Source: Dehalococcoidia bacterium (lineage in GTDB: Bacteria > Chloroflexota > Dehalococcoidia > Lucifugimonadales > UBA3495). From it: 64,000 bases of DNA. Position numbers and translations under genes: made by a program. The notes below the pieces were generated by a model. That model was not told the origin of the DNA and did not search any database. It saw nothing but the letters and a program-made list of their open reading frames with translations. Positions 16,716-20,573 of this stretch are shown in pieces. The stretch's first letter is position 1. Every line of letters begins with the position of its first letter. The stretch lies in assembly GCA_022827095.1 (NCBI GenBank), contig JAJDTP010000019.1, positions 124,001-188,000 of the forward strand, in the 5' to 3' direction.

Positions 16716-17663
16716 ATGCCTGAAACTTACGGTCAGGGAGATTTTCAATACACCTTCGTGGAAGACTGGCTGAAGCTGCCCGACGGTATGCGCCTGCTGG
16801 AGTGCCCGGGCGTGGCAGTCGACGGCGACGACCGCGTGTTCATCCTGACCCGCGGCGAGCATCCGATTATGGTCTTTGACAAGGACGGCAACTTTGAGCG
16901 GTCCTTCGGGCAGGGCCACTTCAGCGACAACCGCACCCACGGCCTGTATTACAGCGCGGCTGACGACACCCTGCTGGCGGCCGATGATGGCATCCATACT
17001 ATCCAGAAGTTCAGCGTCACCGGCGAGAAGCTGATGGAAATCGGCGAGAAGAACCACCCGGCGCCCCGCTGGAGCGGTCAGCCCTTCAACCGGCCCACCT
17101 CCGCCGCCATCCGCCCCAGCAACGGCGACATCTACGTCTCCGACGGGTACGGCAACTCGCGCATCCACGTGTACACCGCCGAGGGGCAGTACAAGTTCTC
17201 CTGGGGCGAGCCGGGCATCGACGCCGGCCAGTTCATCCGCCCGCACAACATCGCCTTCGACGAGGACGAGCGCGTGTATGTGGTGGACCGCGAGTGCCAC
17301 CGCATCCAGCTCTTCGACACCGACGGCAACTTCACGGAGATGTGGAGCAACATCCACCGACCGGACGCCATGGTGTACTGGGGCGGCCATATCTACGTGG
17401 GCGAGCTCAACGGCATGGGCGGTGTGGATGACGCGCCGGGATTGGGTCACCGGGTCACCATCTACGACCGGGACGGCAATCGCGTCTGCGTATTCGGCGC
17501 CCCTGAAGAGGGTGAAGGCGCTGGCCAGTTCATCGCGCCCCACGGTATCGCTGTGGACAGCACCGGCGCGGTGTACGTGTCCGAGGTGTCCTACACCATT
17601 CGCGGCAGCCACATGGACCCGCCGCGCGAGCTGCGCAGCTTCTCCAAGTACGCCAAGGCATAG
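16716..17663 (+). CDS. NHL-repeat six-bladed beta-propeller protein
   Basis: 315 residues with repeated NHL units such as GVAVDGDDRVFILTRGEHPI, NIAFDEDERVYVVDRECHRI and GIAVDSTGAVYVSEV. The repeats form a beta-propeller. No signal peptide is visible, so it may be cytoplasmic or exported by an unusual route. The fold resembles peptidyl-alpha-hydroxyglycine lyase-like and SMP-30-like proteins, but no catalytic assignment is possible. AAGGGAGA precedes the ATG. A paralogue is at 59912-60748. Confidence 0.88.
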   Translation: MPETYGQGDFQYTFVEDWLKLPDGMRLLECPGVAVDGDDRVFILTRGEHPIMVFDKDGNFERSFGQGHFSDNRTHGLYYSAADDTLLAADDGIHTIQKFSVTGEKLMEIGEKNHPAPRWSGQPFNRPTSAAIRPSNGDIYVSDGYGNSRIHVYTAEGQYKFSWGEPGIDAGQFIRPHNIAFDEDERVYVVDRECHRIQLFDTDGNFTEMWSNIHRPDAMVYWGGHIYVGELNGMGGVDDAPGLGHRVTIYDRDGNRVCVFGAPEEGEGAGQFIAPHGIAVDSTGAVYVSEVSYTIRGSHMDPPRELRSFSKYAKA

Positions 17664-17713: not shown

Positions 17714-17778
17714 CGTCTGTGTCGGGTGATAACATGGGACATCCGATGGAAAACCGTGATGCTTCCGGAGCAACCGTG

Positions 17779-18174
17779 ATGGCTACCACCGAGACCGGCG
17801 TCAACGAGACCGTGACAATCAACCGCCAGGTAAAGGCGCATCTGGATGCTGCCGACCGAGAGTTGATGGTACCGGACACGGTCAAAAGCTCCGCCGAGCT
17901 GTGGGCCGCCGTCCGGTTGGCGGCGGTGCTAACGCTCAAGCAACGAGGTCTGCCTCATGAAAACGACGACGAGATTTTGGAATCCATCAGCATCTTGGAC
18001 GAGCGGGAAAACGCTGCCGGGAAAATCAAGCTGAAGTACGGCGCCGCTGGCATATTCCGCGATAACGCCGGCCACGACTTTATGGAATTGGACGAATTTT
18101 TGTTCTGCCGTCCTTCCGCCACAGAATTCGCAGACTGCATGCAGGCCTTGCTGGAAAAGGAAATGCCATGCTGA
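17779..18174 (+). CDS. Small helical protein, PaREP1-like (divergent)
   Basis: 131 residues from the ATG at 17779, which has a ggag upstream; in-frame starts at 17719 and 17746 are alternatives. Key segments are HLDAADRELM, ELWAAVRLAAVLTLKQRGL with PHENDDEILESI, and KYGAAGIFRDNAGHDFMELD. The spacing of W, A-rich helix, RG and H matches the proteins at 4585-4942 and 11603-12055, so I place it in the same loose family. The function is unknown. It overlaps the next gene by seven bases (18168-18174), indicating translational coupling. Confidence 0.6.
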   Translation: MATTETGVNETVTINRQVKAHLDAADRELMVPDTVKSSAELWAAVRLAAVLTLKQRGLPHENDDEILESISILDERENAAGKIKLKYGAAGIFRDNAGHDFMELDEFLFCRPSATEFADCMQALLEKEMPC

Positions 18175-18539
18175 CCGGGGCAGAGCACGCTAGAGAAGCG
18201 TTGGACTGCATCCAGATCAGCCATCGACTAATCGCGCGCGGACGCCGTCGGCCCGCCTCCGATATCCTCTGGTTAGCCGTAAAGCACGCCATTAGCGTTA
18301 TCGGTATCGCAACCGGACAAGATTATGGGAAATACCAGCACAAGCGAGCTGTAATACGCCGGCTGGCTGACGAAACCAACAACGCTGAACTCAATGACTC
18401 TCTTAAAGTGGCGATGCGCGTTCATGCCGATGCGGACCAAGGGTTTCTGTCCGTGCTCGAATTGATCGTACGGCAGCAGCAAACATTGGACTTTGCTGAA
18501 CATCTGCTTGCCATATCCAATGTGACCAGCGACCACTAG
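18168..18539 (+). CDS. Small helical protein, PaREP1-like (divergent), coupled to the upstream gene
   Basis: 123 residues. It has HAREALDCIQISHRLIARG, SDILWLAVKHAISVIGIATG and LKVAMRVHADADQGF, echoing the W-x-A helix and later A-x(2)-H segment of its upstream partner. There is no TM segment or signal peptide. Overlap with the previous gene suggests the two products interact. It ends 11 bases before the TTG start of the next gene, so all three may be one transcript that continues into the selenoprotein. Confidence 0.6.
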   Translation: MLTGAEHAREALDCIQISHRLIARGRRRPASDILWLAVKHAISVIGIATGQDYGKYQHKRAVIRRLADETNNAELNDSLKVAMRVHADADQGFLSVLELIVRQQQTLDFAEHLLAISNVTSDH

Positions 18540-18550
18540 AGGCAAACAAA

Positions 18551-19618
18551 TTGACCACAAACTTTACCGACATAACCACCACCACCTGGGATGATGCCCT
18601 TTCGGCCATCGAGAAGGGCTACGAGCTGGGCTGGAGCGACGGCCTGCCCGTGGTGCCTCCCACGACGGCCCGCGTGGCCGAGTTCATCGGTTACTCCGGC
18701 CGGAACCTCGATGACGTGATAGGCGAACTGCCGGAACGGCGCCGGGTGATCACGGTGGAGAAGGCCGCAGCCAACGCTGTGATGGCCGGCTGCCTGCCCG
18801 AGTACTTTCCCGTGGTGCTGGCCGCCACCGAGGCCATGCTGGACCCGGTGTTCAACCTGGTGGGGCCGTCATCCAGCATGGGCGGCGCGGCGGTGCTGTG
18901 CATCGTCAACGGCCCAATCCGGGAGCAGATCGGGCTGAACAGCCGTAACAACCTGTTCGGACCGGGCAACCGCGCCAACGGCACCATCGGCCGCGCCATC
19001 CGGCTCATCCTGATGAACGCCTGCGCTGCCATCCCCGGCCTGTTCGACCGGAGCGTCATCGGACACCCTGGCAAGTACACCTACTGCATCGCCGAGGCGG
19101 AGGGCGAAACCCATTGGACTCCGTTGCACGTGGACCGCGGTTTCGACGCCGGGGACAGCACAGTTACGGTGTTCGCCAGTGAAGCTCCACGGCAAGTAAG
19201 GTCCGTGGGGCGACCTGAGGCGATCCTGTACGCTATCGCGGACGTGGCCTCGTCCTTGGGTACGTCAATGTCCACCTCTGGATCTGTGGGCGACGTGTCG
19301 GTGGGCATCCGGCAGGGTCAGGTGGCAATCACCATCGCCGGCAACAGCAACCTGTGGCGGGACTGGACAAAGCAGCAGGTTCGGGAGTATCTCCACGAAA
19401 ACGTCCGGCGGTCCGTGGCCGACCTGAAGCGCGGCCTGGTGCTGCGCGGCGACGTGGAGCCCGGCGACGAGGCCGCGATGGTACCGCTGGTTCCCGAACC
19501 AGACGATATTCTGGTAGTATTCGCCGGCGGCGAGGAGTCCAATTCCTCTTCGGTGATACCCAGCTGGGGGCCAAAGGTGGGCTCCACCGCCGTTACCAAG
19601 ACTGTGAATGTACCGTAG
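18551..19618 (+). CDS. Conserved protein of unknown function, partner of the selenoprotein
   Basis: 355 residues from a TTG at 18551 with AGAGGC seven bases upstream. I do not know a named domain, but the text looks strongly conserved: LGWSDGLPVVPPTTARVAEF, TVEKAAANAVMAGCLPEYFP, VVLAATEAMLDPVFNLVGPS, FGPGNRANGTIGRAIRLI. There are no TM segments; it is probably cytosolic. A conserved-looking Cys lies in VMAGCLPEYF. It ends 33 bases before the selenoprotein start on the same strand. Gene order suggests they act together, perhaps with the selenoprotein as a redox subunit; this is inference. Confidence 0.75.
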   Translation: MTTNFTDITTTTWDDALSAIEKGYELGWSDGLPVVPPTTARVAEFIGYSGRNLDDVIGELPERRRVITVEKAAANAVMAGCLPEYFPVVLAATEAMLDPVFNLVGPSSSMGGAAVLCIVNGPIREQIGLNSRNNLFGPGNRANGTIGRAIRLILMNACAAIPGLFDRSVIGHPGKYTYCIAEAEGETHWTPLHVDRGFDAGDSTVTVFASEAPRQVRSVGRPEAILYAIADVASSLGTSMSTSGSVGDVSVGIRQGQVAITIAGNSNLWRDWTKQQVREYLHENVRRSVADLKRGLVLRGDVEPGDEAAMVPLVPEPDDILVVFAGGEESNSSSVIPSWGPKVGSTAVTKTVNVP

Positions 19619-19651
19619 CGACGACAGGAACAGGATCCAGGAGGGCCGAAC

Positions 19652-20188
19652 ATGGCAACTCAACAATACACGTTGGTCAACCCGACCACCGAGCCGATCA
19701 TCGCGCCTTTCGACGGCGCGCCGCGTCTGCCTACCCTGGCGGGCACCCGGGTGGGTCTGATCGACGACAGCAAGCGCAACGCGGACGTGCTGCTTGAGGA
19801 ACTGGCTGAAGTGCTGCGCAACCGCTACGAGATTCGCGAGGTGCGCTGGCTGCGCAAGCCCAGCGCGTCGCGGCCGGCCGATCCCCAAGAACTGGAGGAG
19901 TTGGTGGCCAACGTAGACTCGGTGGTGGTTGCCATCGGAGATTGAGGGAGCTGCAGCGCGTGCAGTGTGCACGACGGAATCCACGTTGAGAAGGCCGGCC
20001 TCCCCTCCGCGACCATTTGCACCGACCGGTTCATTCCCACGGCCAACGCAATGGCCAAGATGTGGGGCGCGGAAGACTATCCGACCATTTTCACCCAGCA
20101 CCCCATTGAGAACCTGGACCGGCCCGCCCTGCGGGAACGGGCGGAGGGCTTGGCCACTGAAGTCGTCGCAATCCTGACCAGCGGCTGA
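19652..20188 (+). CDS. UGSC-motif selenoprotein, in-frame TGA read as selenocysteine
   Basis: A 178-residue product if TGA 19943-19945 is read as selenocysteine at position 98. Upstream, the frame encodes a small alpha/beta domain (GTRVGLIDDSKRNADVLLEE and ELEELVANVDSVVVAIGD). Immediately after the TGA the same frame continues GSCSACSVHDGIHVEKAG, then ATICTDRFIPTANAMAKMWG, and stops at 20188. U98-G-S-C101 is the motif that defines the UGSC family of (seleno)proteins known from marine metagenomes; Cys104 adds a second spacing. AGGAGG lies before the ATG. Without recoding, the product would be a 97-residue fragment and the conserved downstream half would lack a start. No selA, selB, selC or selD is in the window. 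Confidence 0.9.
19943..19965 (+). promoter_or_regulatory. UGA recoding site with possible SECIS-like hairpin
   Basis: UGA is at 19943-19945. Five bases later ctgca (19951-19955) pairs with tgcag (19961-19965) around a five-base loop gcgcg. A short stem downstream of UGA is expected for a bacterial SECIS, but this stem is small and starts closer to UGA than the E. coli fdhF element, and the loop lacks an obvious GU. The UGA assignment is strong; the hairpin assignment is weak. Confidence 0.35.
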
Positions 20189-20199
20189 CGGGGTGAAGC

Positions 20200-20573
20200 C
20201 TACGCCATTTGCAAGCCTTGGTCCGTAAATCTTGCAAAGTCGTCCTCATTGGCGGTCGCGAATTGGGAGCCTGCTCCCAGCGCGACCGCCTCAATCATGC
20301 AATCCATCATCGTGCCCCGCCGCCGGCCCGATGTGTTGAACAGGCGCGCGGCGATGACGGCATGTTCAGGCGTGAAATCCAGGGTGCCCCAACTATTCTG
20401 GCGGCCAATCCGAGATCCTCTTCGGTCAGCGGGGCGCACAGAAATTCAGCCCAAGCGATCGCGCTGACCATAACAGAGTCGCCGGTGCCGAGCCATTCTC
20501 GTAGCTTTCGGTTCTCCGGCGAATCAGCGATCAGTGCCCGGATCAGGAAGCTCGTGTCCAGGTGAATGATCAC
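20200..20573 (-). pseudogene. PIN-domain (VapC-like) toxin interrupted by a frameshift
   Basis: From a GTG at 20573 one frame gives IIHLDTSFLIRALIADSP (first acidic residue of PIN), SAIAWAEFLCAPLTEEDLGL (second) and AARIVGA. The protein continues in another frame with LDFTPEHAVIAARLFN, RGTMMDCMIEAVALG (third acidic residue) and ATANEDDFARF, ending at 20200. The junction lies near 20390-20405. Together they make a full-length VapC of about 125 residues with all catalytic acids, so a single indel broke the gene, or the assembly has an error. It overlaps the upstream partner gene by four bases (GTGA). Confidence 0.8.

Follow-up and report, generated by a model that had tools for sequence, protein, structure and literature searches.

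The gene pair and its features

The window, that is, the whole 64,000-nucleotide stretch of DNA that was analysed, belongs to a Chloroflexota genome whose nearest relatives are Dehalococcoidia MAGs (3.79 Mb, 35 contigs, 97.65% complete). It carries a gene of the UGSC family and, directly upstream, a second gene hereafter referred to as the partner (Table 1). An earlier note on this DNA had proposed that two apparently separate short frames between 19652 and 20188 form a single gene, split only by a TGA at 19943-19945 that would be read as selenocysteine (Sec, U). Both the coordinates and the residue numbering (D97-U98-G-S-C101-S-A-C104) were confirmed: this TGA is the sole interruption between the ATG and the terminal stop, and reading it as U yields a product of 178 amino acids containing GD-U98-GSC101-SAC104-SVHDG. 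Standard gene calling indeed stops there and truncates the protein at residue 97, as had been anticipated.

Table 1. Features of the UGSC gene and its upstream partner, in window positions
Feature	Position	Strand	Details
Partner gene	18551..19618	+	352-355 aa; without relatives in Pfam, NCBIfam or the PDB; 33 nt separate its end from the UGSC ATG
Shine-Dalgarno-like AGGAGG	19639..19644	+	7 nt 5' of ATG 19652; from the sequence
UGSC-family selenoprotein gene	19652..20188	+	178 aa, Sec as residue 98; NF041046 154.6 bits, PF24696 E 9.6e-56
TGA, very probably decoded as selenocysteine (U98)	19943..19945	+	TGA almost invariant among homologues, with Cys in L090
Predicted bacterial SECIS hairpin	19959..19973	+	6-bp stem CGUGCA/UGCACG (19959-19964 with 19968-19973), loop GUG 19965-19967; fold and covariation, 81 sequences
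Terminal TGA, real stop of the UGSC gene	20186-20188	+	

The joined protein matches the NCBIfam model NF041046 ("UGSC family (seleno)protein") well above its cut-off of 125 bits, over model positions 2-147 of 147, and the Pfam model PF24696 (UGSC) with 189 bits against a cut-off of 25, over positions 3-171 of 172. When the two halves were searched separately against NF041046, the N-terminal half scored 52.5 bits and the C-terminal half 80.9 bits, each in the matching half of the model; since both halves independently match one curated family, a chance joining of frames is ruled out. The family motif U/C-G-[SGA]-C is present as U98-G-S-C101, its G99 and C101 being found in 81/81 distinct Sec sequences. 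The UGSC-containing protein was named long ago (PMC2398784) and accounts for 8.2% of the selenoprotein genes in ocean metagenomes, among the commonest there (PMC9402790), and reviews up to 2026 list it without an assigned function, the 2026 review among selenoproteins whose functions are largely uncharacterised. With its motif, TGA-encoded Sec, bacterial-type SECIS element and full-length match above both cut-offs, the gene shows no family-level difference from the UGSC proteins described previously (NF041046, PF24696, PMC2398784) and is one of seven paralogues in this Chloroflexota genome. To judge from its sequence, it is near certain to be a genuine selenoprotein gene of this already named family. 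No relative was found by a PDB sequence search with the UGSC protein.

Conservation of the in-frame TGA

In our alignment of 78 sequences, 77 have the TGA at the same site. In the order to which this genome belongs, 98 genomes were covered, and 129 of their 131 family places hold exactly one in-frame TGA, the remaining two being partial matches; among 301 genomes of the phylum the count is 72 of 75. In several bacterial groups, 80 loci were located by way of the partner gene; their full-length UGSC copies all have the TGA except one, a Geodermatophilaceae copy (L090) with Cys at position 98 (GDCAGC). Cys homologues, for which the earlier note had suggested a search at this position, therefore exist but are rare, and in this order they are nearly absent. 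The seven UGSC genes of the genome itself each contain one TGA.

Purifying selection acts on both sides of the TGA: in comparisons with the three closest orthologues, dN/dS is 0.04-0.09 before it and 0.02-0.05 after it.

SECIS hairpin and the residues of the motif

From the UGA it is 14 nt to the start of the predicted SECIS hairpin and 19 nt to its loop, and below the stem a short G-C extension continues through a bulge. The MFE of the segment 19952-19980 is -9.7 kcal/mol. The published limits for bacterial SECIS elements are a loop of 3-9 nt, a stem of 4-16 bp, a G in the first two loop positions, an MFE of -7.5 or lower and a distance of 16-37 nt from the UGA (PMC13188914); the GUG loop, the six base pairs, the 19 nt and the folding energy of this hairpin all lie within them. 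The fold energy of the single sequence was not unusual when compared with shuffled sequences (z -0.67), so the case for the SECIS element relies on covariation only. The best hairpin sits at the identical place (3-nt loop, 19 nt from the UGA) in 75 of the 81 distinct sequences, and the loop reads GUN in 79. Each of the six stem pairs is retained in 94-100% of the 81 sequences, with compensatory changes. Stem pair 2, which joins third codon positions on both sides, is paired in all 81 (C-G in 67, G-C in 14), and stem pair 4 is found as T-A (53), G-T (15), T-G (4) and A-T (3). The pairing score was 17.3, against a maximum of 15.7 in 200 column shuffles in which third positions were exchanged between sequences. 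An Rfam search of 19600-20300 returned no match.

From the spacing of U98, C101 and C104 the earlier note had suggested a redox centre made of all three residues, and this proposal stood only in part. Residue 101 is Cys in 81/81 distinct sequences, whereas residue 104 is Cys in 43, Gly in 19, Trp in 13, Ser in 4 and Ala in 2, hence something other than Cys in 38/81, and C104 is absent from three of the seven paralogues of this genome. Given this variability, a centre including C104 is not general, and U98-C101 is the only conserved pair. Within the SECIS stem, the codon of residue 104 is base-paired to those of residues 106-107 (window 19961-19972), which ties the identities of these residues together: Cys at 104 goes with His, Gly with Leu and Trp with a 106 codon ending in C. 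The Gly codon GGC, for example, is accompanied by the Leu codon CTC in 15 of 19 sequences, and the Trp codon TGG by a codon for residue 106 whose third letter is C. Part of the protein variation at residue 104 may thus be RNA-driven, through the SECIS pairing.

Selenocysteine machinery and the reading of the TGA

The genes whose presence the earlier note had proposed checking (selA, selB, selC and selD) were all found in the genome. SelA (540.9 bits), selB (355.5 bits) and selD (376 bits) score above their cut-offs, and the tRNA-Sec scores 66.4 bits, with the anticodon TCA (UCA) by ARAGORN. Among the 32 genomes with a UGSC gene, selA is present in 31, and the remaining one is 86% complete. The selD gene of this genome (L013 1501-2421; C20:25694-26614, - strand) is itself a selenoprotein gene, with an in-frame TGA in the context HCAGUAAK.

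Two readings in which the TGA is not decoded have to be weighed against this evidence. The TGA could be a sequencing error or the mark of a pseudogene, the gene being broken, and a draft assembly in 35 contigs leaves room for this as a general possibility; but the same TGA recurs in many species (81 distinct sequences), accompanied by a covarying hairpin and by purifying selection 3' of it, and we rejected this reading on those grounds as vanishingly improbable. The TGA could also be a true stop, the functional form being a product of 97 amino acids, in line with the end point chosen by standard gene calling. Against this, the C-terminal half is conserved as well as the N-terminal half or better and holds the invariant residues C101, E113, F127 and P151, the genome has a complete Sec machinery, and the Cys homologue L090 reads through the site. 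Homologues ending at residue 97, which would be expected from a true stop, were not what we found, as they continue past it, and we rejected this second reading as well, as highly improbable. Family scores above cut-off, TGA conservation, SECIS covariation and machinery thus all uphold the identification of a UGSC-motif selenoprotein, and the full-length product is almost certainly made, SelB with Sec-tRNA(UCA) decoding the UGA at 19943-19945 under the direction of the hairpin at 19959-19973. Where this codon is taken as a stop, misannotation follows at all seven UGSC loci in such genomes.

The upstream partner gene

The partner product has conserved residues C78, C176, R138, N140, R145, N153, E179 and W186 (numbered from 18560). 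Searches against Pfam, NCBIfam and the PDB sequences returned no relative; several stretches of the partner profile matched designed TIM-barrel entries of the PDB below threshold, and these were taken as chance.

The association with UGSC genes is close. The genome contains exactly seven partner homologues, one beside each of its seven UGSC genes, and one of these pairs is a natural UGSC-partner fusion (C15:115935-117644). Of 85 partner copies elsewhere, 80 are accompanied by a UGSC gene, on the same strand in 79 of these and with a median gap of 81 nt. Five copies lack one: for three of them the contig ends within about 220 nt, and two with full flanks (L042 and L052) have no UGSC gene within 5 kb and count against universal pairing. 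Among the 301 genomes, the UGSC gene occurs in 32, the partner in 32 and both in 31. Pairwise distances of the UGSC and partner proteins are correlated (r=0.86, 78 pairs), part of which may reflect shared ancestry across species. Within the genome itself, where species history is constant, the correlation is r=0.81, and only 3 of 5040 permutations reached a value as high. Judging from this sequence-level pairing, the UGSC protein and the product of the adjacent upstream gene probably act jointly.

Fusions of UGSC with a domain called Unknown_1 were reported in Global Ocean Sampling data, where the fused domains as a rule carry at least one conserved Cys (PMC2398784). The fusion in the present genome has the same layout, and Unknown_1 is likely the same family as the partner.

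The AlphaFold model of the partner has a mean pLDDT of 90.8 and a pTM of 0.91. A PDB fold search with it gave weak matches only (Z <= 4.4, TM <= 0.36), to class I fumarase (fumarate hydratase), Toblerone-fold (cyclic-amide) hydrolases, FtsZ and chorismate mutase, and these were not used to assign a function.

Predicted fold of the UGSC protein

The AlphaFold model of the UGSC protein (mean pLDDT 92.3) consists of five alternating strand-helix units, with U98 between the strand 90-96 and the helix 99-114. Its structural neighbours in the PDB are many beta/alpha proteins, with Z up to 10.8, among them lumazine synthase and receiver domains, and are not informative on function. The best natural neighbour, with Z 10.6 over 132 residues, is chain H of 8s7v, one of the subunits in the activation complex of methyl-coenzyme M reductase; this likeness may reflect only the common beta/alpha arrangement.

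A Trx-like fold was suggested as likely for UGSC in 2008 (PMC2398784). The protein does share with thioredoxin-fold selenoproteins a redox-type UxxC motif placed where a helix begins; contrary to that suggestion, however, the predicted order of its five strand-helix units is not that of thioredoxin, and no thioredoxin-fold proteins were noticed among the matches listed for the model in the PDB fold search.

Relation to the GrdB and PrdB reductases

GrdB, GrdF and GrdH, and PrdB, are the Sec subunits of the glycine, sarcosine, betaine and D-proline reductases. The GrdB model TIGR01917 is matched by 27 of 78 UGSC members, with a best E of 5.9e-7, and others match the GrdF, GrdH and PrdB models. 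The UGSC protein studied here scores 21.5 bits against TIGR01917, below the family threshold of 602.2, and its 178 amino acids give no match to PF07355, the N-terminal GrdB domain. PF07355 (GRDB) ends directly before the Sec and misses the Sec region; the model seems to have been built from truncated genes (L148-L168).

As PF07355 stops before the Sec, GrdB-like genes were extended past their own TGA for a profile-profile comparison. With hhalign, UGSC and the extended GrdB aligned with an E of 8.6e-8 over UGSC residues 86-163, and with the whole UGSC motif region masked the E was 3.6e-5, against 0.067 for the best of 40 column-shuffled controls. The part that can be aligned with the C-terminal Sec region of GrdB/GrdF/GrdH/PrdB (PF07355, TIGR01917, TIGR01918, TIGR04483) comprises some 70-80 residues surrounding the Sec; beyond the motif itself (UGTCTRC in the GrdB-like gene L148), the two sides share the helix after it and the segments G[IL]P and HP[LIV]. 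We thus regard the Sec region of UGSC as homologous to the Sec-bearing C-terminal region of GrdB/PrdB. The UGSC protein nevertheless has no N-terminal GrdB domain, scores far below the GrdB/PrdB cut-offs and adjoins a gene that is not GrdE-like, and is best described as resembling GrdB in the Sec region rather than as a member of the GrdB family. No relative was found by a PDB sequence search with GrdB.

The partner was also considered as a pyruvoyl proprotein of the GrdE/PrdA type, and this was not supported: hhalign against two GrdE-like genes gave an E of 0.56, and there was no NCBIfam match to such a family. The comparison with glycine reductase goes no further than the Sec region, as the partner shows neither a detectable likeness to GrdE nor a clear match to a known fold.

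The genome also encodes a separate GrdB/PrdB-like selenoprotein (L156; C35:68451-68861, - strand, and the following frame) with the motif LLTPTUPLCTH. Its product has a long C-terminal extension beyond the Sec region, and genes resembling it, with either TGA or Cys, are found throughout the phylum.

Possible function of the UGSC-partner pair

From its conservation and from the predicted fold, in which it lies at the end of strand 3 and at a helix N-terminus with Cys101 one turn on, Sec98 is likely a catalytic or resolving selenol. We propose that the UGSC protein could be the half that provides the selenol in a GrdB-like reductase made of two proteins, the partner subunit holding the substrate. 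The selenol of U98, in a UxxC pair with C101, would attack this partner-held substrate, and C101 would act as the resolving residue, the selenol being regenerated through a U98-C101 selenenylsulfide. Chemistry of the GrdB/PrdB kind with such recycling is a possibility that we put somewhat short of even. Still more tentatively, UGSC and its partner may be a new two-subunit selenoenzyme, in which a stand-alone Sec domain of the GrdB/PrdB type is combined with a substrate subunit of unclassified fold, and which is present in up to 11 diverged copies per genome in Chloroflexota and several other bacterial groups. The occurrence of several diverged pairs in one genome suggests one enzyme type acting on several substrates. 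Taken as a whole, a selenoprotein with a dedicated partner, a catalytic selenol and GrdB-like chemistry is the best explanation of the data and one that we hold to be reasonably probable.

Other functions can be imagined for the pair. UGSC might be a general thiol-selenol redox protein of the thioredoxin type (a peroxidase, a disulphide reductase or an electron carrier) with the partner as client or reductant: UxxC is typical of redox selenoproteins, the Trx-like fold of the 2008 proposal would fit, and the partner has two conserved cysteines, C78 and C176. The confidently predicted fold is not in thioredoxin order, however, and the one-to-one pairing of paralogues points to dedicated pairs and not to a general carrier, which leaves this option unlikely. 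To much the same degree we doubt that the pair is not a reductase at all, its selenol serving as the nucleophile of a lyase, hydrolase or transferase. The position of U98 at a strand end and helix N-terminus is a usual one for a nucleophile, and class I fumarate hydratase and cyclic-amide hydrolases head the fold matches of the partner; those matches are weak, though, and there is better evidence for the link to the reductases GrdB and PrdB. The pairing with the partner, the GrdB/PrdB relation and the near absence of Cys forms in this order turn an orphan selenoprotein into a defined, testable two-protein unit. The UGSC family itself was already known; the present analysis adds to it the partner module, the relation to GrdB, the predicted fold and a correction concerning C104.

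Neighbouring genes

The genes surrounding the 80 loci include a cluster of short-chain dehydrogenases in 17 and luciferase-like monooxygenases in 11 (both named by sequence inspection); they are otherwise varied and reveal no consistent pathway across these loci. In the window, two small open reading frames lie upstream of the partner, one at 17719-18174 without any match and one at 18168-18539 with a weak PaREP1/PaREP8 match (26.3 bits vs 24.4). Further upstream, positions 16716-17663 encode an NHL/six-bladed beta-propeller protein, homologues of which are found at 7 of the 80 loci with a partner gene, apparently a case of conserved synteny among close relatives.
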